From positions 1-64,000 of the IMG/VR virus record IMGVR_UViG_3300027747_002377: a stretch of 64,000 nucleotides of DNA; one strand, 5' to 3'. The notes under the pieces are model-generated. The model did not search any database, was not told the DNA's origin, and saw only the letters and a program-made list of their open reading frames with translations. This DNA is from a virus. Shown piece by piece: positions 6,483 to 57,845 of this stretch. Numbering within the stretch: position 1 is the first letter of the stretch; each line of letters opens with the position of its first letter. The position numbers and the translations under genes are program-made.

Positions 6483-7625
6483 TCAAATAATGGTGAAAGC
6501 AGAGGTGATGAAGTCCTTGTTCAGGTTAGCAAAACCGGCGTACAGCTGCCAAATCAGGATGATGAAGCGGCTGAAGTCGTCGTTGTTGTTGATCAGAACC
6601 TGAGCATTAGGACCACCGATGCCTACGCCAACAGCCTGAGGACCAAAGAAAAGGCCAGGAGGAGTTGTATGAGTAATGGCACCAGAACCGTCACCGATAT
6701 CAACGGTGATGGATTTATCAGCAAAGTTGGTTGATTCGAAGAAGCGAACACCTTCAAATACAAAACCGGTAGGCATTACAGGTTCACCAGCCACGAACAT
6801 GGCTTGGCCGTACTGACCACCGCCATAGATGGCTTGGTTAGGAGCGCCAGCACCCATCAGAGGGTTGCCTTGGCCCATGCCTGGGTAACGAGCCACTTCA
6901 CGGAAGCCTTGGTCAGCGCGGAGATCCTTCATGAATGAAGGGTCAGCAACGCAACGGTAGTAACCATCTTGGAACACGGGAACGTTGCGCTTACGCAGCT
7001 GACGAACCACTTCCAGAAGGTCGGTCTTCACGTTGAACTTGTAGCGTTCTGAGGCGTACTCAGTAGCGCTATAGGAGTTCAGGGTAGTGGAGGCAGACTT
7101 AGTCTTGCCATTGGGGTAGTAGTAACCGCCTTGGGTATCGCCAGAGGCGCCACGGGACTCAGACTTGGCCATTTCATCAAGGAACACACGGTCCCTCCAA
7201 CGGCGGTAGTCGTCCAGCAGGGTCAGCGAACCGATGGACTGGTGGAACATGTTAAGGTTCCCGGTGTCCAGCAGCAGACGCTGAGCGGTCATCAGGGTCT
7301 CACGAGCAATCTTGAAGGTACTCGGGAGGTTGGTGTTGTTCGGGTCAGCAGGACCGGTGTACTCACGCAAGGAAACAAGAACCTTGTCCTTTACGATGGC
7401 ACGGCTGCTAGCGGTACCGATGGTTTGATCTTGGGTACGCTCGCGGCTGGTCTTCGTCCCAGGGTTGCCCCAGAAACGATAACGGTCTAACTGTACAGTC
7501 TGACCAGGTTGTTTGGTAAAGTCATGGACCACGACGGGCTCAGCCGCCATTTCCACAATGTAAGCTGGGTGAGGGCGGTAAAGTTCCGCACCCAACAGCT
7601 TAGGAAAATCGTTATCGATAAACAT
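6483..7625 (-). CDS. Major capsid protein
   Basis: 380 residues. Order after portal and scaffold-like genes, length, and motifs such as DRYRFWGNPG near the N-terminus, GYYRCVADPSFMKDLRAD in the middle and FEGVRFFESTNFADKS toward the C-terminus fit an HK97-fold capsid protein of the broad N4-gp56-like type. The C-terminal QLYAGFANLNKDF would be the end of the P/A domains. It has its own candidate promoter and a leader hairpin. Role is well supported by context; exact family is inferred. Confidence 0.75.
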   Translation of the reverse strand: MFIDNDFPKLLGAELYRPHPAYIVEMAAEPVVVHDFTKQPGQTVQLDRYRFWGNPGTKTSRERTQDQTIGTASSRAIVKDKVLVSLREYTGPADPNNTNLPSTFKIARETLMTAQRLLLDTGNLNMFHQSIGSLTLLDDYRRWRDRVFLDEMAKSESRGASGDTQGGYYYPNGKTKSASTTLNSYSATEYASERYKFNVKTDLLEVVRQLRKRNVPVFQDGYYRCVADPSFMKDLRADQGFREVARYPGMGQGNPLMGAGAPNQAIYGGGQYGQAMFVAGEPVMPTGFVFEGVRFFESTNFADKSITVDIGDGSGAITHTTPPGLFFGPQAVGVGIGGPNAQVLINNNDDFSRFIILIWQLYAGFANLNKDFITSAFTII

Positions 7626-7659
7626 AGTGGTTACTCAGCGTAAAGAGTTAGCTGAAACC

Positions 7660-7676
7660 TGAGGTAGAACACCTCA
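7660..7676 (-). other. Hairpin in capsid leader
   Basis: TGAGGT-5 nt-ACCTCA, a perfect 6-bp stem about 35 nt upstream of the capsid start. No U-run follows, so it is more likely an mRNA-stabilising or regulatory hairpin than a terminator. Confidence 0.5.
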
Positions 7677-7707
7677 AAGTATCTGGAACATTTGCTCCAT
7701 TATAAAA

Positions 7708-7716
7708 ATTATAGCA
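7708..7716 (-). promoter_or_regulatory. Extended -10 promoter for capsid
   Basis: On the minus strand this reads TGCTATAAT, a perfect extended -10 box, with no good -35. It lies about 85 nt before the capsid ATG, just after the stop of the upstream gene. The same TGnTATAnT form occurs at 23332 and 37729. Confidence 0.55.
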
Positions 7717-7737
7717 AAGACTTACTTATCTTGATTA

Positions 7738-8031
7738 TTAACCCATTGGATGAAACTGTGGATCCACACCAGTGTAACCATCAACCATATTTCCGTACCG
7801 ATAAGATGTAGGTGCCATGGCGCCCATCATGTGATAAGGATTAGTCGTGGGAGTCTGCAGAGCAATCTGCTGAGCTTGAATTTCAGGATTAATACCAGCA
7901 CCTTGTGATTGGGCTAAGGCAATCATTTGTGCATTGGCTTGCTGCTGTTCAGCTTGGTTAGCAGAGGCTTTCTTCTGGCTGCTACGAGCTTTGGCCTTTG
8001 TCTTAGCAGTCTTTGCTTTCTTGGCGTCCAT
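7738..8031 (-). CDS. Small Lys-rich then Gln-rich protein, 97 aa
   Basis: First 25 residues are nearly all Lys/Ala/Ser (possible nucleic-acid binding tail), then a Gln/Ala-rich helix, then an uncharged Tyr/Met/Gly end. Shares one base with the upstream stop. Between the scaffold-like and capsid genes; likely a minor head protein. No family. Confidence 0.6.
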   Translation of the reverse strand: MDAKKAKTAKTKAKARSSQKKASANQAEQQQANAQMIALAQSQGAGINPEIQAQQIALQTPTTNPYHMMGAMAPTSYRYGNMVDGYTGVDPQFHPMG

Positions 8032-11655: not shown

Positions 11656-14118
11656 TCAATACTCTAACTCTAGTTTTCCTCTGGTCATTAAACCATTACA
11701 AAGCCAAACGAGAGCGTCGACACAATCGTCGTGGGAGCTGACACCAAAATTTACAATCTCATCAGTTAGAGCCATAAATTTGCGGTACCTGTTAAAGACT
11801 AGCTTACGTTGCTCAAATAAACCCATAATCCCCCTGAAACGTGCTACTTTGTCCCCGCGAAATCCTTTGACCGCATGCCAGTTAATGTTGTAAAGACCGT
11901 GGTCACCTTGGCATATCCTCCTGAAGTCTGCCTCCAGGGATGCCTGATATGCAACTGCTTCCGACCAAACATCAATGCTGCTTCCGGTTGGGTGGTAATC
12001 ATTACCGTCTTTATGCACTACTCCCCATTCATACAGCATTTCCATTAAAGCTTCGAGTTTTTCTAGGTTTCCCATGATGCGAATTCGCTTGCAATCAATA
12101 ATGTGAATTTTGTCCCCTACTCTTCCGCCCATAACAAACACGGTGTAGTCATTACGTTCTCTTACTCCAGCAGATAAATCAACGCCAATACCAAGTGAAT
12201 CAAAGTGCGTAGAAATTTGACCCTTAACAATTAAGTCAGGTGAGATAGATAGTTCACTGGTCTGTACGATTTGATTTTGATACTGAAAACTAAAACTGAT
12301 TGGAGCTTGACGGCGGCGATCTTGAAGGTATTCAAGTGACCACATTTCAGGCCAATAAGAAACTTCGTCGCCTTGTTCGTCTACAGTAATGGCAGATTGG
12401 ACAATCTGTACCCAATCGTTGCCAGGGGTGAAGGTACTGGCATGAACATCATCATGACGGAACCTAGTACCTAGACAGACTGCACGTCCACCTTCAAACA
12501 TTGTTGGTGTGATAACTGAGTTCCAGTTATCCTCCATTGCCACTCGGATATCCCTGTTCTTAATGTCGTCAGAGCTCTTAATCGGGTCATCTATTATACA
12601 ATTTGCTACACAGAACTTACCTTTACCCGCAAAGAAGTTATGGTTTGTGGATCTTGTTTCAAGGTCATAGACATACTCCTCTCCGCTGCTAATTTCTGAA
12701 ACGGCGGAAATGGTAGCTCCACTATCTTTGCTTTTTCTGCTAATTGATGATAGCTTGTATGGCAGGGCCTGCAGACAGTAATTAAATTCTGTAATACGTT
12801 GTTCTTCGGATTTGCATCGATATGGTGCACAACTAAGTTGGTTCTTACGTGTTGATTTTTTGCAGTCAACATTTGTTCCTTGATATTGCATAGAGAACAG
12901 GTCATATTGTCCCTTTTTAAAATTAATTCTCGCAGCTCCGGTAGTTTTGGCCTGCTCATGCCGTGCCGCCAATTTGAGTTCCACTTCCCCTTCATCATTC
13001 TGGAATGAACTTTGGAGGAACAAATTTTTGTACAGTAGACGCTTTCCGAGTTTCTTGGTTGGAAACTCTGATTGCATTCTGGGCAAATCTTTGGAAACAA
13101 AATTTGTTTGTATTTTCCTGCACACTTCTTTGAACAGAAAAACATTTTTATTTTGCTGTTTCGAGATAGCTGTCTCCAGTTTGTATTTACCTGAAAGCTT
13201 GTTTGACAGGTTGGACAACTTGTTTTTATTTTTATCTTGAAGGCAATCGGAATAACTAAGCAGCCGATCCCCAGCTTTGAGATCTTTGGCGCACACAATT
13301 CCCCGCCCTGGGATATAAAAAGGGTGTTCTGGGGTTGCCCGTATGAGATCTCCAGTGCTTGTTTCCACGTGGATAAACCGGTCGGCAAGGCGTCTAGACA
13401 CTGCGTGTATTCCTGACCACTCAACGGCACTTGTTTCTGGGTTGTATGTGCTGACTCTATAATCTTTTGGTTGTTGATACAGGTCATGGATTGGAATGGA
13501 GCCGTGTTGCGTATTGACAAGTGTATCACCTGTCAGGCATAAATGGCTACGCTTTGAGGTCACAGCACCTTTTAGTCCAGCGCAACAAAGAGTAAATTCT
13601 TCTTCACCAGTAGATTTAATGCCAGCAAACTTCCAATCAATACTCCAGTATTCGTTACTATTAATTCCTTTGGCAATCTTCACCATTGGAAATACTTCTT
13701 TGTATGTTTTACTTTCTTCTAAAATTCTTTTGATGGCTGCACTTTTAGGGCGAGCAACATCAACGGTATAAGAAATGTAAAGAATCTTTAGTGGTTTTTT
13801 ATTTAATGCGTGTACACCGATTGTCCATGCTGTGAACAAACCTAAAATGGTCGACTTGGCTGAACCCCGTGGTCCTAATATGTCTACGTTTGGTCCTGCA
13901 ATACCAATCAAGCACTCAGAATCATTTCCTGTGCATAGGTGCTGATGCCAGAGAAGGTGGTGAGCTGCTGGCGGTTTGTCGCCAACTACAGTACAGAAGT
14001 AAGCAAAGTCTACCCGTGCCCGTTCAATATCAATGTCGGAACTTTTTTTTACTACTTGTTGCTTTGCTGCAGCACGTGCAGTCCTCCGGTAAACGGAGTA
14101 TAGGGAAGTACCAGCCAT
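11656..14118 (-). CDS. terL: Terminase large subunit interrupted by intein
   Basis: 820 codons, of which 507 remain after intein removal, a normal TerL size. ATPase Walker A GPRGSAKST is at residues 82-90. Walker B (hydrophobics then IIDDP) is split by the intein: Leu193 precedes it and Cys-Ile-Ile-Asp-Asp-Pro follows. The C-terminal nuclease domain has the first acidic strand (GIGVDLSAGVRERNDYTVFV) and a terminal acidic strand (SSHDDCVDALVW). It pumps DNA into the prohead through the portal. Start follows the possible small-terminase gene by 24 nt. Without splicing the Walker B strand would be disrupted, so packaging probably depends on splicing. Confidence 0.9.
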   Translation of the reverse strand: MAGTSLYSVYRRTARAAAKQQVVKKSSDIDIERARVDFAYFCTVVGDKPPAAHHLLWHQHLCTGNDSECLIGIAGPNVDILGPRGSAKSTILGLFTAWTIGVHALNKKPLKILYISYTVDVARPKSAAIKRILEESKTYKEVFPMVKIAKGINSNEYWSIDWKFAGIKSTGEEEFTLCCAGLKGAVTSKRSHLCLTGDTLVNTQHGSIPIHDLYQQPKDYRVSTYNPETSAVEWSGIHAVSRRLADRFIHVETSTGDLIRATPEHPFYIPGRGIVCAKDLKAGDRLLSYSDCLQDKNKNKLSNLSNKLSGKYKLETAISKQQNKNVFLFKEVCRKIQTNFVSKDLPRMQSEFPTKKLGKRLLYKNLFLQSSFQNDEGEVELKLAARHEQAKTTGAARINFKKGQYDLFSMQYQGTNVDCKKSTRKNQLSCAPYRCKSEEQRITEFNYCLQALPYKLSSISRKSKDSGATISAVSEISSGEEYVYDLETRSTNHNFFAGKGKFCVANCIIDDPIKSSDDIKNRDIRVAMEDNWNSVITPTMFEGGRAVCLGTRFRHDDVHASTFTPGNDWVQIVQSAITVDEQGDEVSYWPEMWSLEYLQDRRRQAPISFSFQYQNQIVQTSELSISPDLIVKGQISTHFDSLGIGVDLSAGVRERNDYTVFVMGGRVGDKIHIIDCKRIRIMGNLEKLEALMEMLYEWGVVHKDGNDYHPTGSSIDVWSEAVAYQASLEADFRRICQGDHGLYNINWHAVKGFRGDKVARFRGIMGLFEQRKLVFNRYRKFMALTDEIVNFGVSSHDDCVDALVWLCNGLMTRGKLELEY
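12601..13539 (-). other. Terminase intein, 313 codons
   Basis: Residues 194-506 of the terminase reading frame. N-terminus: Cys in a block A (CLTGDTLVNTQHGSIPIHDL). Block B is RATPEHPFYIPGRG with Thr and His. C-terminus: EEYVYDLETRSTNHNFFAGK (block F), ending CVAN before extein Cys. The final Asn is preceded by Ala rather than the usual His, as in a minority of active inteins. N- and C-terminal splicing parts total about 146 residues, the size of a mini-intein. The roughly 166 codons between them look like no domain in this frame but encode an HNH endonuclease in the +1 frame. Confidence 0.88.
12606..13529 (-). CDS. HNH homing endonuclease nested in intein, +1 frame
   Basis: 307 codons open, lying wholly inside the intein but shifted +1 from the terminase frame. 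The recognisable protein is residues about 100-265 (DNA about 12735-13232). It has a zinc finger C105-x2-C108...C132-x3-C136, a second C149-x2-C152...C166-x3-C170, and an HNH domain with C211-x2-C214, LVVHHIDANPKNN (235-236 HH), QNL, and C253-x2-C256-H. Residues 1-99 are only the shadow of the intein N-domain, so the true start is unknown. No ATG precedes the first finger; a TTG in this frame after GGCGGGGAA, or a +1 ribosomal frameshift from the terminase frame, are possibilities. Zinc-finger plus HNH architecture is typical of phage homing endonucleases. Confidence 0.8.
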   Translation of the reverse strand: MIHLSIRNTAPFQSMTCINNQKIIESAHTTQKQVPLSGQEYTQCLDALPTGLSTWKQALEISYGQPQNTLFISQGGELCAPKISKLGIGCLVIPIAFKIKIKTSCPTCQTSFQVNTNWRQLSRNSKIKMFFCSKKCAGKYKQILFPKICPECNQSFQPRNSESVYCTKICSSKVHSRMMKGKWNSNWRHGMSRPKLPELRELILKRDNMTCSLCNIKEQMLTAKNQHVRTNLVVHHIDANPKNNVLQNLITVCRPCHTSYHQLAEKAKIVELPFPPFQKLAAERSMSMTLKQDPQTITSLRVKVSSV

Positions 14119-14142: not shown

Positions 14143-14628
14143 TTAGGACTCTTCCGACAGAATCTTTGTCCAGACACCCATGGACGCTTCTTGAAGTGGG
14201 CCTTCAATTGGATCGTCACGGAAGATAGAAAGCATTTCCCTTAGTGCACGGTCTGCACCAGCAAGAATCAAACCTTGTTTATCGGTAAGAACTTTCTCGT
14301 CGTTGATCTGTTTAATTGAGCCACGCAATTCTTTTTGAAGCATGGCAATGCGGGAAGTTCCCATATCTTGTTTTACCATACCAAGATCAATTGCATCACG
14401 AAGTTTTGCAATGTCTTGCTGCATGGAGTCAACCTCTTCCTCTAGTAACGCATTAAAGTTTCTTTTTGGATATTCTTTCTTTGACCACTCGTCGCACTCA
14501 ACAATGCTACCTTTAAACCCGAGAAAACGGGCATAGAGGTACATTTGAATTGGTGTAGAGGTTTTTTTGCAAAATGCAAAAAAGGATTCGCGGTCTTTTT
14601 CAGTTAGGCTTTGAACCCATTTAATCAT
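14143..14628 (-). CDS. Possible small terminase subunit, 161 aa
   Basis: All-helical and acidic, with an N-terminal segment (SLTEKDRESFFAFCKKTSTP followed by QMYLYARFLGFKG) that could be a helix-turn-helix and a coiled-coil middle (EEEVDSMQQDIAKLRDA). It lies directly upstream of the large terminase, the usual place for TerS. Overlaps the upstream gene by 4 nt. Assigned by position and fold impression only. Confidence 0.5.
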   Translation of the reverse strand: MIKWVQSLTEKDRESFFAFCKKTSTPIQMYLYARFLGFKGSIVECDEWSKKEYPKRNFNALLEEEVDSMQQDIAKLRDAIDLGMVKQDMGTSRIAMLQKELRGSIKQINDEKVLTDKQGLILAGADRALREMLSIFRDDPIEGPLQEASMGVWTKILSEES

Positions 14629-15257
14629 GATCTGTACTGGTTCTGGGCTTGTTCGTAATCCCTGTTTTCTTTATAGCGCCTGAACATCTCTTGTTGAAGA
14701 TCAGTGGTGCGTTGTTCAGTAGCTGTTTTGCCAATGGTCTCACGTTGTTGTTCGCCGGTGGTTTCAACTGTTTTTCTTTCTTCTGTACCGGAGGTCTGGA
14801 TACCAAGGCGTTGTTGTTCGCCTGATGTAACAGTACTTTTACGTGTTTCTTCACCAGTGGTTTGAATTCCTAACCGTTGTTGTTCGCCTGATGTGACTGT
14901 GCTCTTACGTGTTTCTTCACCAGTGGCGGCAATGCCGAGGCGTTCTTGTTCTCCTTTTGTTTGCGTTAATGCTGTTTCACCGGCAAAACGTGCTGCTGTT
15001 GATTTTCGTTCTTCTTCCCCTTGCGTGGCAAGTGTTAACCGCTGTTCGGCGCCTGCGGCTTGTGTCCGCCTTACGTCTTGGCCAGCAAAGAACTCCGCGT
15101 TGGTGCGATCAAGCTCAGCACCTACCTCCATATTGAGGCGTGTTTGAGCAGCGCTTACTTCCGCTAGATCTATTTGCCCCCTGTAGGACTGAGTAGGGAC
15201 GTCAACCTGTTGTGGATCAGGTGTTGCTTGCGGGAGAAGTACGGTTTCGTCTGCCAT
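14625..15257 (-). CDS. Repeat-containing Gln/Glu/Thr-rich protein, 210 aa
   Basis: Residues about 75-190 consist of a 22-residue repeat of type GEETRKSTVTSGEQQRLGIQ, with two nearly identical copies in the centre and diverged copies on each side. Charge pattern suggests a long rod or coiled coil. It precedes the terminase genes and follows the series of internal virion proteins. Function unknown; a rod-like virion component is plausible. Confidence 0.65.
   Translation of the reverse strand: MADETVLLPQATPDPQQVDVPTQSYRGQIDLAEVSAAQTRLNMEVGAELDRTNAEFFAGQDVRRTQAAGAEQRLTLATQGEEERKSTAARFAGETALTQTKGEQERLGIAATGEETRKSTVTSGEQQRLGIQTTGEETRKSTVTSGEQQRLGIQTSGTEERKTVETTGEQQRETIGKTATEQRTTDLQQEMFRRYKENRDYEQAQNQYRS
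14811..14942. repeat. 66-bp tandem repeat inside coding region
   Basis: Two 66-bp units (14811-14876 and 14877-14942), nearly identical in DNA, with more diverged units on both sides. Each encodes 22 residues of the rod protein. The number of units may vary between relatives. Confidence 0.85.
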
Positions 15258-23358: not shown

Positions 23359-23484
23359 ATGCCCTTCTCCCTTATTCTCCCTCCAAATCCCTTCCAGCGC
23401 AACGCATCTCAGCGTTTCCGTCAGGTGGAAAGTGGCCAGCCAGGAAAATTCGGCAGGAGCTGTGGATATCTTTTCTTGCTTTAA
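23359..23484 (+). CDS. Possible 41-aa peptide
   Basis: ATG about 19 nt after the extended -10 box. The product is basic (MPFSLILPPNPFQRNASQRF at its start, then Gly/Ser/Arg) with a hydrophobic end. No ribosome site. Could be a leader peptide or chance. Confidence 0.3.
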   Translation: MPFSLILPPNPFQRNASQRFRQVESGQPGKFGRSCGYLFLL

Positions 23485-23652
23485 TTTTAACTACGTTTTT
23501 ATTTAGTATAACCTTTTGCTGCGTAAGATTTGTATTTATTCGGGAATTAAATTTTGTATTTAATACTACTTCGTTGTAGACGACTTCCTCCAGGCTTCGA
23601 TGCTTGGATGCAGTCCTCTTGACTGCAATCAATTCTACCAAAGCTAACTCCA

Positions 23653-23877
23653 ATGAACAACACATCTCCTTTCCAAGATGCTTTCTTTGCTGCAGAAGAG
23701 GCTGCAGAAGAAGCTGCAATGAATGAGTTTATGGCTAAGAATGACGCCAACGCAACTCTTGCAAAGGTTGCATTCAAAGTTGCATTCACAGCTGCAGTAG
23801 CAGGTGTTGGATACCTTGCAACACGCCCCAGAGTAAAACGAGCAGTTGCTGAACTGTTCAAAGCTGAATCCGTTTAA
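23653..23877 (+). CDS. First rightward gene, small membrane-associated protein
   Basis: 74 residues: an acidic Ala/Glu helix (AAEEAAEEAAMNEFMAKND), a hydrophobic helix (VAFKVAFTAAVAGVGYLATR) and a basic end. Probably inserts in or lies on the membrane. Followed by a GGGAGG/CCTCCC hairpin. Function unknown. Confidence 0.65.
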   Translation: MNNTSPFQDAFFAAEEAAEEAAMNEFMAKNDANATLAKVAFKVAFTAAVAGVGYLATRPRVKRAVAELFKAESV

Positions 23878-23884
23878 GCGGTCA

Positions 23885-23903
23885 GGGAGGTGCAATGCCT
23901 CCC
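23885..23903 (+). other. GGGAGG/CCTCCC hairpin, copy 1
   Basis: GGGAGG-7 nt-CCTCCC, 7 nt after the stop of the first rightward gene. Same stem and loop length as at 24272-24290. No U-run, so a stabiliser or processing hairpin rather than a classical terminator. Confidence 0.6.
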
Positions 23904-23947
23904 GCAGCTCTTACCAACACTACGTTTTAATGTTTTGTTGGTTCTCT

Positions 23948-23991
23948 GAAGTAAGTTTTGTATTTAAACTTGCTTCGTTTTATCCTTTGCA
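23948..23991 (+). repeat. Composite hairpin plus TCCTTTGCA element, copy 1
   Basis: Stem GAAGTAAGT/ACTTGCTTC (one G-U pair) around a loop containing TTTGTATTTAA, followed by CGTTTTATCCTTTGCA. The start codon of the next gene is 8 nt downstream. A second copy with different stem bases but preserved pairing is at 25471-25514. Confidence 0.7.
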
Positions 23992-38774: not shown

Positions 38775-39008
38775 ATGCAAAGAGGTTTTGTTTTCTGTAA
38801 TAAAGACTTCACTAAAGTTCTTTGCATTGACTCCAAGGTTCATGGTTTTGTAATGATTTCTGTTGACGATACGAAAGCTTTGAATAAAGCTATGTGCCTT
38901 CATGATTTGACAGAAGCTAAGAACATTCAAAGCCGCCTTGATGTCAATGGAATGAATAATGATCTAGAAATTACTAACATTGCCCGCTTGTACAAAAAGT
39001 TCTACTAA
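38775..39008 (+). CDS. Small protein before DNA polymerase, 77 aa
   Basis: ATG at 38775, 5 nt after the upstream stop; overlaps the polymerase start by one base (TAATG). Alpha/beta (GFVFCNKDFTKVLCIDSKVH). Unknown, but coupled to the polymerase. Confidence 0.55.
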   Translation: MQRGFVFCNKDFTKVLCIDSKVHGFVMISVDDTKALNKAMCLHDLTEAKNIQSRLDVNGMNNDLEITNIARLYKKFY

Positions 39009-41650
39009 TGACAAGATTTGTACTTGACCTTGAGTCCAACGGTCTGCTGCCGACCATGGACAAAATTCATTGTATTGTCCTTTATGATCTAGACAAACAA
39101 GAGTATATTAGCTGCGCTGATCAACCTGGATATAAACCATTAAGTTATGCTATTGAGTGTATCCAACAGGCTACACTCTTGGTGGGTCATAACGTAATTA
39201 AGTTTGATATTCCTGCTCTCAAAAAGATTTACCCTGATCTCATACTGAGTCCGGATTGCACTTATTTTGATACGCTTATCACCAGTAGGTTGTTCTGGCC
39301 GGAGCTTGAGCCAGTTGATCACGCTAAGTACAGTCACATAGAACGTAAGTACTTTGGTAGGCATTCATTGGCTGCCTGGGGTGAACGTCTTGGCGTAAGT
39401 AAAATTGACTTTAAGGCTGAGTTAAAAGAACAAGAGGAAGAAGTTAAGAACGTATGGGAATCTTGGTCCGCCACCATGCAAACTTACTGCATGGCAGGCC
39501 ACCACAAGTTTTTGCGTGACGATTTAAGTTGGGTCCCGTGCAAAGATATACACGAAGGTGACACAATTTTAGGGTTTGACGAGTTTCCAGAAAAACAAAC
39601 TGGTCGGTGTTTTAAGCCTACAAAAATATTAAAAAAAACAACAGATCAAGCTGAACTGTTTCGCGTTACTTTGAAATCAGGAAAAACTTTTGATGTCACA
39701 GCTGAACATAAGTGGTTGGTAAGAAACTACAAATCACGTTCATCTTTGCAAAACCCTTTTGAAACCAGAACTCAACTAGTTTGGGCGGAAACTAAAGATT
39801 TAATGGCATCAAAATGTTTTGCAATTAAATATATGAATACTTGGGAAGATGTAAAAACATGGGAGGCAGGTTATCTTGCAGGAATTTTTGACGGCGAAGG
39901 CAATGTTAGAAGGCATCAGAAGTGGGACCGCCTTGATTATTCTTTTGCGCAAAAACCTGGTGTGGTGCACGATTTAGCGTGCAAAATTATTAATAATTTG
40001 GGTTTCAGATATACTACAAGAAAAGTAATGAATACTGGTGATTGCGATTGTATTAGAGTTGTAGGCACTTGTTATGAAAAGCTTAGATTGTTGGGCATGA
40101 TTAAGCCTGTTCGATTAATTAAAAATGCGCAACCTTTTGAGCGCCTTGGAAGGTGTGAAGTCAAGGGTGAAGGGGATTTTGATGAAATTGTTTCGGTTAT
40201 TTCTATCGGAATGGACGTAATTTATAAGATAAGTACTGATACTAAAACATTTGTTTTAGATGGCTATGCTCACCACAACTGTGAAGGTGACATTAAAGTT
40301 TCTATACGTCTGTATGACTACATGCTCAGCCAACAAGCTGACCCACGATCAGTAGAGCTAGAGCATCAATTTGCTTTAGTAATGGCAAAACAAGAACAAT
40401 TTGGATTTCCTTTTAATGAGAAAGCGGCCTTCGCATTGGTTAACACACTCAAAGCCAAGAGGACTGAGATCAACGACCGCCTCCAGGAAGTGTTCCCATC
40501 TATCGTCGAGGAACGGTGGTCAACTAAGACGGGTAAACGGCTTAAGAACAAGGTGCAGATCTTTAATCCAGGTTCTAGGCAGCAAACTTCTGAGCGGCTT
40601 AAGGCGCTTTACCCAGAAATTACTTTCGACACCACGGAGAAAGGGAATCCTCAGGTAGATGATGATGTGCTGGAAAAGCTTGGCACAAAGTATCCTGAAG
40701 CTAAACTACTAGCTGAGTACCAAACGCTAAACAAACGACTTGGACAAATCGCAGAAGGAAAAGAAGCCTGGCTTAAGCACGTTCAGGTTTATGGCGATGG
40801 TCGAATTCATGGTGAAGTCATCACCAATGCTTGCATCAGTGGTAGGTGCAGCCACAAGCGTCCAAACATGGCGCAGGTACCCAGTGTTGGCCACGCTTAT
40901 GGTTCTGAATGTCGGGCTCTTTTTTATGCTCCTGATGGGTGGAAATTAGTTGGCGCCGACGCATCAGGACTTGAGTTACGTGCACTCGGAGCATGGCTTG
41001 CCTACTTCGACGAAGGAGATTATGCAAGGCTTGTTAGTGACCCTGCTGTCGATATTCATAGTTACAACGCTCGTATGTTCGGTATTTATAGTGGTGATAA
41101 CCCTATAACAAAAGCCGAAAGGGACCTATCAAAGAAGCTAATCTTTGCTCTTGCTTATGGTGCTGGCGCAAAAAAAGTTGGTAGTATCGTACTGCCTTTT
41201 GGAAGTGAAGATGAACAATATAAACAAGGTAAAAAAACAATGGAAACGTTCTACGATAACCTTCCTGCTATTAAGCAACTAAAAGATCTCATTGAGAAGC
41301 GCGTTAATGAGAAAGGATACTTAACTGGGATCGACGGCAGAAGGCTACAGATCAGATCAAAGCATGCTGCCCTGAACCAATTGCTCCAGAGTACCGGGGC
41401 AATAGCAGTTAAGAAAGCTACATGTATTTTGTATGAGGACTTAAAAACTATTGGATTAGAGTTCGGCAAACACTGGGGTTATGTTGCACACGTCCATGAT
41501 GAATTTCAAGCACTCGTTCTCCCAGCTTATGTAGAAACTTATATGAAGGTGGCAATTGATTCCTTTAAGAAAGCTGGTGAGTACTTTAACCTAAAGTGTC
41601 CACTGACAGGTGAGGCCAGGGTAGGACAGAACTGGATGGAAAGCCACTAA
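39008..41650 (+). CDS. T7-like family A DNA polymerase with intein
   Basis: 880 codons; 616 residues after removing the intein. N-terminal 3'-5' exonuclease: Exo I FVLDLESNG (residues 4-12), Exo II HNVIKFDIP (61-69), Exo III Y160-C-E-G-D, split by the intein. Polymerase motif A is GADASGLELRALG, motif B is RDLSKKLIFALAYGAG and motif C is HVHDEFQ. The residue equivalent to E. coli Pol I Phe762 is Phe. No 5'-3' exonuclease domain. Replicative polymerase; works with primase-helicase 51821 and SSB 43108. Tail-to-tail 4-nt overlap with the minus-strand gene at 41647. Confidence 0.93.
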   Translation: MTRFVLDLESNGLLPTMDKIHCIVLYDLDKQEYISCADQPGYKPLSYAIECIQQATLLVGHNVIKFDIPALKKIYPDLILSPDCTYFDTLITSRLFWPELEPVDHAKYSHIERKYFGRHSLAAWGERLGVSKIDFKAELKEQEEEVKNVWESWSATMQTYCMAGHHKFLRDDLSWVPCKDIHEGDTILGFDEFPEKQTGRCFKPTKILKKTTDQAELFRVTLKSGKTFDVTAEHKWLVRNYKSRSSLQNPFETRTQLVWAETKDLMASKCFAIKYMNTWEDVKTWEAGYLAGIFDGEGNVRRHQKWDRLDYSFAQKPGVVHDLACKIINNLGFRYTTRKVMNTGDCDCIRVVGTCYEKLRLLGMIKPVRLIKNAQPFERLGRCEVKGEGDFDEIVSVISIGMDVIYKISTDTKTFVLDGYAHHNCEGDIKVSIRLYDYMLSQQADPRSVELEHQFALVMAKQEQFGFPFNEKAAFALVNTLKAKRTEINDRLQEVFPSIVEERWSTKTGKRLKNKVQIFNPGSRQQTSERLKALYPEITFDTTEKGNPQVDDDVLEKLGTKYPEAKLLAEYQTLNKRLGQIAEGKEAWLKHVQVYGDGRIHGEVITNACISGRCSHKRPNMAQVPSVGHAYGSECRALFYAPDGWKLVGADASGLELRALGAWLAYFDEGDYARLVSDPAVDIHSYNARMFGIYSGDNPITKAERDLSKKLIFALAYGAGAKKVGSIVLPFGSEDEQYKQGKKTMETFYDNLPAIKQLKDLIEKRVNEKGYLTGIDGRRLQIRSKHAALNQLLQSTGAIAVKKATCILYEDLKTIGLEFGKHWGYVAHVHDEFQALVLPAYVETYMKVAIDSFKKAGEYFNLKCPLTGEARVGQNWMESH
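39488..40279 (+). other. DNA polymerase intein with LAGLIDADG endonuclease
   Basis: 264 codons in frame (residues 161-424). Starts at Cys (CMAGHHKFLRDDLSWVPCKD), block B GKTFDVTAEHKWLV, a single dodecapeptide motif YLAGIFDGEGNV, and ends DTKTFVLDGYAHHN before extein Cys. Penultimate His and terminal Asn are canonical. Inserted between the Tyr and catalytic Asp of Exo III. Complete, so probably active in splicing; endonuclease activity is uncertain with one motif. Confidence 0.92.
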
Positions 41651-50371: not shown

Positions 50372-50743
50372 TTAAGCCTCATTGGGCACCGGGATCGCCC
50401 TGCTAAAAATTTTGGTGACGCTTCCCCCTGCTTCCAGTTCCTGTTTTAGTACCTCACAAGCCGCATCGGGATTTGTGTGTTGACCGCAGGTAAAGACATC
50501 AATTGCTGCGTAATTTAGTTCGGGCCAGGTATGGACGGATATGTGGGACTCTGATAGCAGTGCTAGCGCCGTGACCCCTTGCGGTTCAAATTTGTGACTT
50601 ATCAATTGCAAAAGCGTTGCGCCGGAACGGGTTACAGCTTTTTGAATAGCTTCTTTGATGAAGTCTTCGTTGTTTAAATGGTCAGGGTTGCTGTCGTACA
50701 CCTCAAGGATACAGTGACGACCAAGCGTTGCTACCTCATGCAC
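50372..50743 (-). CDS. speD: S-adenosylmethionine decarboxylase proenzyme
   Basis: 123 residues, class 1B prokaryotic length. Self-cleavage site Glu65-Ser66 in LSESHISVHTWPE; Ser66 becomes the pyruvoyl group, His71 and Cys86 (DVFTCG) are the processing and catalytic residues. Makes decarboxylated AdoMet for spermidine synthesis. A known auxiliary metabolic gene of cyanophages. No spermidine synthase is nearby, so it would act through host SpeE. Confidence 0.93.
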   Translation of the reverse strand: MHEVATLGRHCILEVYDSNPDHLNNEDFIKEAIQKAVTRSGATLLQLISHKFEPQGVTALALLSESHISVHTWPELNYAAIDVFTCGQHTNPDAACEVLKQELEAGGSVTKIFSRAIPVPNEA

Positions 50744-54416: not shown

Positions 54417-54548
54417 CTACTTAGGGCCTGGATCTTTTCCTTTCATTACTACTTCACAGGCCCTTCTGTAGTAATCACAGTTAGTTTTCCCTGCTGTCTC
54501 CAGGGCAGCCTTTACTTTCTTCCAGTTATCAATTGTGTGTTGCTCCAT
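54417..54548 (-). CDS. Small minus-strand protein, 43 aa
   Basis: Starts inside the 3' end of the preceding minus gene. Sequence (WKKVKAALETAGKTNCDYYR then RACEVVMKGKDPGPK) follows a 'W-K-x-h-x-x-A-L-E-x-x-G-K-T' then 'Y-x-R-A' pattern I know from small phage proteins. Convergent with the primase-helicase. Confidence 0.6.
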   Translation of the reverse strand: MEQHTIDNWKKVKAALETAGKTNCDYYRRACEVVMKGKDPGPK

Positions 54549-54711
54549 TAGGTTCTATGGGGTCAATGGGCATCTCATGTTTAGACTGACACCAGGTTCT
54601 GTCGTGTGGTATCGTTTCCGTACCGTACTCCCAGTCATCGTAGGTGTCAAGATTCCTGAGGAGTGTGGCTAAACTTTCGATTAGTTGACGTTCGTCAGGT
54701 GTTAAGTTCAT
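54529..54711 (-). CDS. Small protein, 60 aa
   Basis: Acidic helical start (LTPDERQLIESLATLLRNLD) and a Pro/Trp/His end. Overlaps both neighbours (4 nt upstream, 20 nt downstream). Unknown. Confidence 0.55.
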   Translation of the reverse strand: MNLTPDERQLIESLATLLRNLDTYDDWEYGTETIPHDRTWCQSKHEMPIDPIEPNGATHN

Positions 54712-55031
54712 ACCCCTTTTATTTTGCTGTATTGTCTTACCTGATCTTCTGTCCAGCTGTCAGGACGTCCTAACTGTCTTTTGGCATAATTTATTCTTCT
54801 AGTTAAGCCTGGTAAGTATATATCTGGGTCGATGGAAGGCTTCTCATTTATTTCAAAGCTTGGTGTACTTGAAATAAGTTGCTGCCCTACAAGTGGTCCG
54901 CCGCTCTCTTGTGCATACTGATCTTGAAGTCGTAATGAAGGAATATCGCTGCCCGCTTGGCTATAATCCTCCATTCCTTTTACGTATTGTTGAAGGAACC
55001 CTACTGCAGGAAAATCGTTATCTCCCATCAC
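54708..55031 (-). CDS. Minus-strand virion-type protein, 107 aa
   Basis: Gln/Pro/Ser/Asp-rich with a helical C-terminus (RRINYAKRQLGRPDSWTEDQ). Coupled on both sides. Composition like the virion arm. Confidence 0.55.
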   Translation of the reverse strand: MMGDNDFPAVGFLQQYVKGMEDYSQAGSDIPSLRLQDQYAQESGGPLVGQQLISSTPSFEINEKPSIDPDIYLPGLTRRINYAKRQLGRPDSWTEDQVRQYSKIKGV

Positions 55032-55264
55032 CGCCCCATGCTATGTAGGAATTGGGTTACTCGATCTCCCACCGGCATTTGTGAAGCCGCATTCTGTGGG
55101 TTGGTCTTCATGGCAGCCTTCTGGTTTGCCATTTGGTACGGTGCACTCACCGCCTGACCTTGGTTAGACCACCCACCAGGGAGCATGCCTTGACGTTGAA
55201 CGCCATCTACATGCCCCATCTGGCTGTAATCAAATCCCGAAGGGTTGTACTGTTGGTGCATCAT
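55028..55264 (-). CDS. Minus-strand virion-type protein, 78 aa
   Basis: Gln/Met/Gly-rich, low complexity. Its end (DRVTQFLHSMGR) resembles the end of the next upstream gene product (EKVQAFLNMLTGVGQGR), suggesting a shared docking motif or duplication. Confidence 0.55.
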   Translation of the reverse strand: MMHQQYNPSGFDYSQMGHVDGVQRQGMLPGGWSNQGQAVSAPYQMANQKAAMKTNPQNAASQMPVGDRVTQFLHSMGR

Positions 55265-56142
55265 CGTCCTTGTCCAACTCCAGTGAGCATGTTGAGGAAG
55301 GCTTGAACTTTTTCGTTGGTGCTGCCGGTACGATCTTCTCCCATCTCAGGCTGAGCCACTTGAGCTGGTTGTTGCTGTTCTGGGTTCCACGCATTGGTGG
55401 CACCAAGTACCGGTTGTTGCATTGACCAAGGCATTGAGACAACGCCTTCTGGTTGGCCAGGTTGACGGATGCCTTGCTTCTGTATTACATCATAACCGGC
55501 TTGACCAGGGCGAACCTTAGCGGCTAGATCAGGGTGTGCCTGTGCCCATATCTGCATACCCAGTGCTTCTTTAGAGGGGCCTGCAACTGTGTTTGCGTAT
55601 TGAGCCAGCTCAGATTTGTATTGATCGCTCTGTGACCAGTCAGGAGTTACTCCGTCCCTTGTTCCCATGATAATGGGAGTAGGACCTGTTAGAGGTGCAG
55701 GCTGTTGGTTGGGAGCAGGAGTAAAAGCGCGGCCTGTGTAACCACCCATATTACCGCCGCCTAGGCTGCCACCACCCGCACTACCTTCTCTGCCGGTACC
55801 GATTTGAGATGCCCTAGCTTTTGCTGCAAGAACTAGTTCATCGTGGGTATAGCCTCTGGGAAGACTAGAAACACCACCACCTGTGTACGGAAGGCGTCCA
55901 CCAAAAATACTTTTACCTATATAATTTAATTCGTTTAATGCACCTCGACCAAGATCATTTGATTTTGTTGAAGGAATAGCCCGTAAGGATTGATCAAGTA
56001 AAGATCCGGTTTGTCCTTGCTTGAATAGCTCAGAACCTAAATATGTAGCTAATCCGTTACCCAACCCTTTACCCAACGTACTTTTAAGTCTCCTGTAATG
56101 AGAGGTATCCCAATCAAATTGATCCATCTCTGCTTGATTCAT
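55261..56142 (-). CDS. Minus-strand virion-type protein, 293 aa
   Basis: First gene of the 54417-56142 operon. N-terminal ordered helices (HYRRLKSTLGKGLGNGLATY), Gly-rich centre, Gln/Pro-rich end, final helix EKVQAFLNMLTGVGQGR. Composition matches internal virion proteins such as 15921-16718. No family. Confidence 0.6.
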   Translation of the reverse strand: MNQAEMDQFDWDTSHYRRLKSTLGKGLGNGLATYLGSELFKQGQTGSLLDQSLRAIPSTKSNDLGRGALNELNYIGKSIFGGRLPYTGGGVSSLPRGYTHDELVLAAKARASQIGTGREGSAGGGSLGGGNMGGYTGRAFTPAPNQQPAPLTGPTPIIMGTRDGVTPDWSQSDQYKSELAQYANTVAGPSKEALGMQIWAQAHPDLAAKVRPGQAGYDVIQKQGIRQPGQPEGVVSMPWSMQQPVLGATNAWNPEQQQPAQVAQPEMGEDRTGSTNEKVQAFLNMLTGVGQGR

Positions 56143-56189
56143 CTCTGCACTTAGCTTTCTTACAATAATACTATCTCAAAACTTTTTTG

Positions 56190-56387
56190 ATGGAAGAAAT
56201 TGTAGTTCAAAAATACGATAGCGGTGTCAAGATAATTCAAGCCCAGGATTCTAGGGGGCTAGATGTTTACCTTGTGTGCGGGGCCAAGGTGAATAGTTGT
56301 CGTTATTGCGATTCTTTTCATATAGCCCTTGCATATGCCAAAGAATTTGATGATGAAACACAGAAAGATTTGGAGGGGCAGCCCTGA
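56190..56387 (+). CDS. Small plus-strand protein, 65 aa
   Basis: Beta-alpha protein with two Cys (NSCRYCDSFHIALAYAKEFD), possibly metal-binding. ATG 56190. Lies just left of the 44-bp inverted repeat. Unknown. Confidence 0.55.
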   Translation: MEEIVVQKYDSGVKIIQAQDSRGLDVYLVCGAKVNSCRYCDSFHIALAYAKEFDDETQKDLEGQP

Positions 56388-56524
56388 AATTGGTAGTACA
56401 ACAGTTCTATAGGTGAGTTGATAGGGGTCGGAGACTGTTAGACAGTTCCTTGCGCTGCAACGGGTTTCAGGGAAGGGTTTTGACCCTTTTGAAAAGGTGA
56501 TGCCGCTGAAAACTCCTAATGAAG

Positions 56525-56595
56525 AAAAAAGGGTTACTGCCTAGCAGGCAGTAGTAGGGGTGTGAGGGTGTCTGCTAGTCAGTAACCCTTTTTTT
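56525..56595. terminator. Long bidirectional hairpin with A/T flanks
   Basis: AAAAAAGGGTTACTG pairs perfectly with CAGTAACCCTTTTTT; after a one-base mismatch the stem continues CTAGCAG/CTGCTAG around a 24-nt G-rich loop. About 22 bp of stem. T-run on either strand, so it can terminate both directions; it could also be a structured small RNA. Confidence 0.8.
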
Positions 56596-56648
56596 CTCTA
56601 TAAGAATTAATAGAGGCCGCAGTTTTTTGCGTTCTTCCAAGACGATCC

Positions 56649-56677
56649 TTGACATCCCTTGCAGCGCAGGCTACTGT
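56649..56677 (+). promoter_or_regulatory. Sigma70 promoter with overlapping operator
   Basis: TTGACA (perfect), 17 nt, TACTGT. Start expected about 56684, only about 4 nt before the TTG start codon, so the mRNA is nearly leaderless. The dyad ACTGTCTAACAGT (56673-56685) covers -10 to +1. Confidence 0.75.
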
Positions 56678-56687
56678 CTAACAGTAT

Positions 56688-57845
56688 TTGTCCCCTATCA
56701 ACTTGCTCAACGCCAAAAAAACGGGTCAGTTCTTCGCTGACAGGGGTCTTGGTACCGAAGATTTGATCTGGCTACTGAAATGCACGAAACTCCTACGTGA
56801 TCGCCTCCCTGGTGACCGTTGCTGGTGCCTGGACAAGATCAACCATCCGTTCTTCCATGGGTTTACACTCCAGGGGAGAGGGGCGCTCAAGGGGGCTCAG
56901 GGGGACGCTGATAAAGCCTCAGGCAAAAGACCCATGTATAGAGGCAGGGACGCCCGCTCCTTGATCCTGGCGATCACAGGACGTTATGGAGAGCCTGGGA
57001 AGGTGGTTGTGCGTACCGCTGCCTGCGAATCTTTTTATTGCATCAATCCCACCCACTATTACTGGGGCACCAAGGGGGACGTTCAGTTGGAACGCCTAAG
57101 GCGCGGAGGAACTGACCTACCTAACGAGACGATCAAGCAGATCAGGGAAGCAAGGCAATCAAATGCTCAGATCTATACCTACCAAAAACTGGCGGAAGAA
57201 TTTGACCTTTCTTATAGCGTTATACGTGGGGTATGTACCAAGGGTAATTACCAGACGACAGAGGCGGCTGCACAGGAAACTGTTATAGTGCCAGAGAAAC
57301 TAGGTTTAAATATGGAAACCCTTGCAATTACTGAAGACGACACCATGGATTACTCAAGTATTGAGTGTATCTGGGGGCACAAGGGACGGTTTGGAATGAT
57401 GGGTGAGTGCCTTGATTGCATGGATGAGATAGCCAAGGGGAAATGTGAAATAAATCTTAAATCTTTTGCCTTTGATAAGTACTGGACCGTACGCAGCTTC
57501 TGGGACAAAGTCAACATTCCTAAAGATCAGGACACAAAACAGTGTTGGTCATGGGGTGGGGGCAGGAAACCCAGCAATGAAACGGTTGCTTATATGCCAA
57601 GTCCATTCCACTCAGCCAAAGCTCAGACTGCTCCACGGGTGGCGTTCTGGGTAGCCCGAGGTTACACTGGCAAATACCGGATTCAACACGCCAACAAAGA
57701 CTGTGAATCTGGTTGCTGCAATCCGACTCATCTAACCATTAAAGGGTTACAGTTAGTAGAGCAACCAGATAAATTAACTGTCTACGATCTGTCCTATGGA
57801 AACATCTTTGAGCAAGTCAGGAAAGCCAGCGCAGAAACGAAGTGA
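56688..57845 (+). CDS. Double HNH-like DNA-binding protein, 385 aa
   Basis: Two degenerate HNH-type zinc modules: ACESFYCINPTHYYWGTKGD at about 110-130 and RIQHANKDCESGCCNPTHLT at about 335-355 (Cys-x-Asn-Pro-x-His as in HNH_3-type endonucleases). A helix-turn-helix lies between (YTYQKLAEEFDLSYSVIRGV, about 160-180). The first module lacks the leading His, so nuclease activity is doubtful and a DNA-binding regulator is plausible. TTG start at 56688; TTG 56703 is an alternative. Its promoter carries a palindromic operator, hinting at autoregulation. Confidence 0.6.
   Translation: MSPINLLNAKKTGQFFADRGLGTEDLIWLLKCTKLLRDRLPGDRCWCLDKINHPFFHGFTLQGRGALKGAQGDADKASGKRPMYRGRDARSLILAITGRYGEPGKVVVRTAACESFYCINPTHYYWGTKGDVQLERLRRGGTDLPNETIKQIREARQSNAQIYTYQKLAEEFDLSYSVIRGVCTKGNYQTTEAAAQETVIVPEKLGLNMETLAITEDDTMDYSSIECIWGHKGRFGMMGECLDCMDEIAKGKCEINLKSFAFDKYWTVRSFWDKVNIPKDQDTKQCWSWGGGRKPSNETVAYMPSPFHSAKAQTAPRVAFWVARGYTGKYRIQHANKDCESGCCNPTHLTIKGLQLVEQPDKLTVYDLSYGNIFEQVRKASAETK

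Follow-up and report, generated by a model that had tools for sequence, protein, structure and literature searches.

Directly upstream of a gene for an HNH-like protein, the virus DNA analysed here carries a long inverted repeat, which raises the question whether this repeat regulates the adjacent gene, serves as a switch for the genes on both sides, or marks a site of recombination, replication or packaging. The window, i.e., the whole stretch of 64,000 nucleotides that was analysed, is part of an 82,372-bp IMG/VR virus record. The phage is related to the cyanophage S-EIV1 of Synechococcus (KJ410740), as judged from a major capsid protein that is 70% identical and a D5-type primase that is 36% identical. 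Gene control in S-EIV1-like cyanophages is hardly described, as far as the literature found shows. This paper describes the extent, folding and conservation of the repeat as determined entirely by sequence computation, and proposes with moderate confidence that the element is a cis-acting lock that would keep read-through RNA from expressing the HNH-like gene, combined with an internal promoter that would express it.

The repeat was originally predicted as a gap-free pair of 44-bp arms, and these arms (56417-56460 and 56659-56702) are indeed paired at 37 of the 44 positions, with 3 additional G.T pairs and no gaps. The chance of a 37/44 match is about 3e-16 for a single comparison and about 1e-8 over 64,000 x 500 comparisons. 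The element is larger than predicted: a repeat search delineated arms of 58 nt at 81% (56416-56473 and 56646-56703), as well as a second, inner pair of arms (56492-56550 and 56569-56627). Since the outer and inner pairs share one axis, the whole stretch from 56412 to 56707 (296 nt) is a single gap-free quasi-palindrome (Table 1). For the + strand a folding energy of about -150 kcal/mol was predicted, and for the minus strand one of -133 kcal/mol, corresponding to a z of about -12 relative to shuffled sequences in both cases. The element represents the most extreme 300-nt fold among the 1,368 windows of the genome. Besides its own inner pair, it is the sole inverted repeat with arms above 31 nt within 500 bp in the repeat-finder list for this genome. 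The stem-loop with flanking A/T runs that had been noticed between the arms was recovered as the central hairpin, and no open reading frames of at least 50 amino acids were found between the arms. The central stem is followed by T7, and it was absent from the list of a consensus scan for terminators on the + strand, which was restricted to loops of 3-8. The dyad ACTGTTAGACAGT is present as an exact copy in each arm, as had been stated, and no other mismatch-free copy occurs in the 82,372-bp record.

Table 1. Coordinates of the inverted repeat element, its predicted parts and the neighbouring genes in the window.
Feature	Position	Strand	Remarks
Leftward ORF of the neighbouring operon, 293 aa	55261-56142	-	No family match
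Small co-directional gene, 66 aa, ATG at 56190	56187-56387	+	Stops 25 nt before the element
Left (5') arm	56412-56475	+	From repeat search, fold and arm pairing count
Left dyad-like site CCTTGCGCTGCAACG	56448-56462		11/12 match to CCTTGC-N3-GCAAGG
Central hairpin, terminator-like	56519-56600	+	-40.5 kcal/mol; A-run before, T-run 56589-56595 after
Right (3') arm	56644-56707	+	From repeat search, fold and arm pairing count
-35-like TTGACA of the predicted HNH-like gene promoter	56649-56654	+	Identical in A' relatives
Right dyad-like site CCTTGCAGCGCAGGC	56657-56671		Within the promoter spacer
-10-like TACTGT, 17-nt spacer	56672-56677	+	Weak match in the window (3/6); A' relatives have TATTGT
HNH-like protein gene	56703-57845	+	TTG 56703 taken as start; longest ORF from TTG 56688

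The right arm contains a sigma70-like sequence, TTGACA-N17-TACTGT, which was recognized by consensus match, and the start codon TTG 56703 is located at the base of the outer stem. Many groups of relatives have promoter-like pairs with a spacing of 16-17 nt at a comparable distance. On basis of this arrangement, RNA that is read through from the small upstream gene would fold into the long hairpin, of which the terminator-like tip could terminate transcription and the outermost 3' strand would cover the start region of the HNH-like gene, such that read-through RNA would give little or no protein. Transcription from the candidate promoter in the 3' arm would yield a short transcript with a leader of approximately 19 nt, lacking the 5' arm and with its start open. 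Both transcripts would be made, and the protein would be translated from the short one only.

This proposal was evaluated with a model long transcript comprising 340 nt upstream and a model short transcript that begins 28 nt before the HNH start. The unpaired share of the start region was 0.06 for the long model transcript and 0.60 for the short one; with the upstream part shuffled it was 0.39, and none of 20 shuffles reached a value as low as 0.06. In model read-through transcripts the HNH start ranked first of 51 starts in this genome for sequestration. Start codons of the relatives were set by rule or by eye; over the 59 loci that were modelled, the long-range pairing at the start codon amounted to 0.37, as compared to 0.19 in shuffled sequences. 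Strong sequestration was found in groups A (close relatives of the window phage) and A' (72-73% protein identity), the L048 group, and loci L064, L091, L108, L191, L190 and L029, and it was absent in S-EIV1, L027 and L034, while many group-B loci were no better than their shuffles. The leader preceding TTG 56703 (AGTATTTGTCCCCTATCAAC) has no evident Shine-Dalgarno motif.

The bidirectional switch that had been suggested is supported for one direction: a regulatory role for the rightward HNH-like gene is supported by the predicted promoter in the right arm, the start at the stem base, the conserved architecture and the synteny. Control of the leftward genes (54417-56142) found no such support, as inspection by eye gave no -35/-10 pair in the left arm and the co-directional gene at 56187-56387 intervenes. 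A 15-bp tandem duplication (56119-56148) is located at the start of the leftward ORF 55261-56142.

The same features could be read as a plain intergenic insulator, in which an intrinsic terminator ends the small upstream gene, the HNH promoter comes next, and the long outer arms have no function of their own. The central stem has its A/T runs in both groups A and A', the hairpin of the A' relatives being of the same A-run/T-run kind, and the candidate promoter lies downstream of it. However, the match between the outer arms greatly exceeds chance and the arms co-vary, and the sequences of groups B, C and D, as read by inspection, have a central stem without a clear T-run and yet keep the nested architecture, which makes such an insulator an unlikely explanation.

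Relatives were collected through protein-family searches that gave 17, 8, 80, 6 and 80 IMG/VR loci in overlapping sets. A blastn search of the region and a tblastn search of the protein encoded at 56688 against phages gave no match; the relatives were those found in IMG/VR together with S-EIV1, which was read by hand. In bacterial and archaeal genomes no relatives were found. In most of the approximately 60 relatives examined, including S-EIV1 (L025, about 7740-8015 on the minus strand), a nested inverted repeat is positioned directly upstream of the 56688 homologue. The usual order is leftward ORF, small + ORF, element and HNH-like gene, with a small + ORF in the equivalent place in most relatives that usually stops approximately 290-390 nt before the HNH start. 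The element is nearly unchanged within group A, and it is kept with many changes in the A' relatives, while element sequences are barely alignable between groups or subclades; L030 and L031 have coding sequence in place of the element. The mean fold z over 64 upstream regions was -4.3 for the + strand and -3.8 for the minus strand, with several group-B loci near zero. Conservation among relatives extends to position and architecture, but neither to sequence between subclades nor to the ACTGTTAGACAGT dyad. A long promoter-bearing hairpin that is fixed in place across a lineage while its sequence turns over constitutes a testable regulatory element.

Recombination or inversion at a pair of sites, as was also put forward originally, would be in keeping with a long inverted repeat that flanks a non-coding segment. 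All loci inspected have the same orientation, and the alignment of A and A' is collinear throughout, which leaves this explanation highly improbable.

In the alignment of A with A', 11 pairs (32 cells) are altered on both sides and still paired, versus at most 4 pairs (11 cells) when partners were slid along the alignment; 96% of the cells are paired versus 40-53% with slid partners, and the covariation score is 0.198 versus at most 0.087. Columns 34 and 263 display G-C, G-U and A-U states across different phages. For these 9 aligned sequences, 2 of the 5 covariation measures were not above those of shuffles, and most of the covariation signal derives from one split, A versus A'. Two-sided changes are also present in the sub-alignments of other groups, in up to 31 of 75 pairs, and the group-B core gave a weak consensus fold only. 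Template switching between the arms could be an alternative source of concerted changes.

Whether this pairing acts in RNA or in DNA was addressed through the mismatches. Within the window element the register mismatches comprise 19 G.T versus 3 A.C, on a strand that is G/T-rich (ratio 1.48). Helix mismatches favour G.U over A.C (94.5 versus 45.5; shuffles 92.5 versus 81), while one-step changes at paired sites between sister sequences are nearly balanced (G.U 141 versus A.C 124.5) and display no clear strand bias, so that selection may act on a + strand RNA or on DNA. Because these counts do not agree on a strand and start sequestration is not universal, paired DNA operators are the main rival of the proposed lock. 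The arms would then carry inverted sites at which a regulator binds and represses the promoter, possibly by looping; the HNH/HTH protein might itself be this regulator and control its own promoter, and arm pairing would be a by-product of site symmetry. Several observations are consistent with such operators, including the inverted dyad-like CCTTGC-N3-GCAAGG sites in the left arm and the promoter spacer, the approximately equal folding of both strands, and the short sites that recur in inverted orientation in the outer arms and loop of groups B and C, with a further recurrence ahead of the HNH start in group C. Many relatives have sites like CCTTGCGCTGCAACG at approximately 260-300 nt before their HNH start. 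A precedent is I-TevI, which is known to repress its own gene through an operator that overlies the promoter (PMC2988022), and which resembles the present case as a nuclease-family protein with an HTH-like segment and dyad-like sites at its promoter, the difference being that the sites described here are diffuse and putative. Against operators, an EM motif search over the relatives gave a diffuse motif only, and the A/A' pairing reaches well past any single site. Moreover, the ACTGTTAGACAGT dyad is gone in the A' relatives although arm pairing is retained. We consider paired operators possible, if on the whole rather doubtful.

The strong fold and the covariation, together with better folding of the + strand than of the minus strand in several relatives, would also suit a free-standing structured non-coding RNA with a function of its own. 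Searches of Rfam 15 gave no family above the gathering threshold for the window, and E-value searches of nine relatives and of the element-bearing L001 gave only chance miRNA-like hairpins. Moreover, no promoter was identified for a separate RNA, and the sequence is barely conserved between subclades, which renders this explanation very unlikely. In the S-EIV1 clade the inner-arm sequence is repeated just before the start codon, where it could provide an alternative pairing partner or a binding site. Some group-B loci, e.g., L050, L053, L060 and L105, seem to have a second copy of the central hairpin further upstream, a module of the form GGTTAGGT...ACCTAACC that has ACAGTC-type sites inside.

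The protein encoded downstream of the element matches HNH/endonuclease families of PHROG (E 2.6e-11; relatives up to 4.8e-28). No match above the cut-off was found in Pfam, and a sequence search of the PDB gave no notable match; the structure model has a mean pLDDT of 53 and is usable at best for residues 81-180. Residue 111, two positions before the first motif Cys, is presumably the position of the catalytic His, as judged from general knowledge of HNH motifs. It is Ala in the window protein and His in 7 of the 40 aligned relatives, these being groups E and F and L098. The HNH-like gene of S-EIV1 seems shortened in its record (7027-7467), as the open frame extends to 7704, and a + strand CDS annotated at 7576-7725 overlaps this frame and looks spurious.

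The closest counterparts of the proposed lock are homing endonuclease genes of T4-like phages. The combination of a hairpin in upstream-initiated transcripts that covers the start and an internal promoter has been reviewed for I-TevI, I-TevII, I-TevIII, segB and mobE, the latter of phage Aeh1 (PMC2988022, PMC3014915). As in those systems, the gene concerned here belongs to a nuclease family, and upstream-initiated transcripts would fold over its start, here by prediction only; the T4-type promoter inside the structure yields transcripts without the 5' strand, for which the window offers a candidate promoter with a weak -10. In contrast to the T4-type systems, the structure comprises approximately 296 nt with a terminator-like tip, a Shine-Dalgarno sequence was not seen within it, the gene occupies a fixed place across the whole phage lineage, and the window protein lacks His at the probable catalytic position. 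Because no Shine-Dalgarno motif was seen and the probable catalytic His is mostly absent, the element was not classified as a member of the T4 type. The S-EIV1 locus is alike in lineage, in its homologous HNH-like protein and in the nested inverted repeat directly upstream, but its element is unrelated in sequence and its start codon is not sequestered in the model. If the proposed lock is correct, the hairpin-lock logic of T4 would also apply to nuclease genes in phages unrelated to T4, and perhaps to a nuclease turned regulator. A broader and decidedly speculative proposal is that S-EIV1-like cyanophages maintain a lineage-specific element for its shape, a nested hairpin that bears a promoter, and not for its sequence, and that the nuclease-derived protein, having lost the catalytic His in most lineages including that of the window, may now bind DNA and regulate its own hairpin.

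Two features would fit a hairpin that acts in single-stranded DNA as a replication origin, priming site or single-strand promoter: the place of the candidate promoter within a hairpin stem, which is reminiscent of known single-strand promoters, and the gene for the D5-type primase, located approximately 2.3 kb left of the element. We know of no single-stranded stage for this phage, and the cumulative GC skew has no extreme at the element, its minimum being near 35 kb, away from the element, in this genome and in S-EIV1. A replication landmark, which had been among the original suggestions, is accordingly quite unlikely, and a packaging end finds no support in the records, which run through the element. 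Near the primase gene, an ORF at 50372-50743 resembles S-adenosylmethionine decarboxylase by eye, and S-EIV1 has an annotated S-adenosylmethionine decarboxylase beside its own primase.

Several further repeats and insertions were observed elsewhere in the window. Direct repeats GTAAGTTTTGTATTTA with related 35-nt copies are present at 23490-23982, between leftward structural genes and rightward genes, and may be promoter or regulatory repeats; a further dyad-like site is located at 23390. A 66-bp tandem repeat of 2.3 copies (14806-14955) lies within ORF 14625-15257. Finally, the ORFs for the terminase large subunit (11656-14118) and DNA polymerase (39008-41650) seem, by eye, to contain intein-like insertions.
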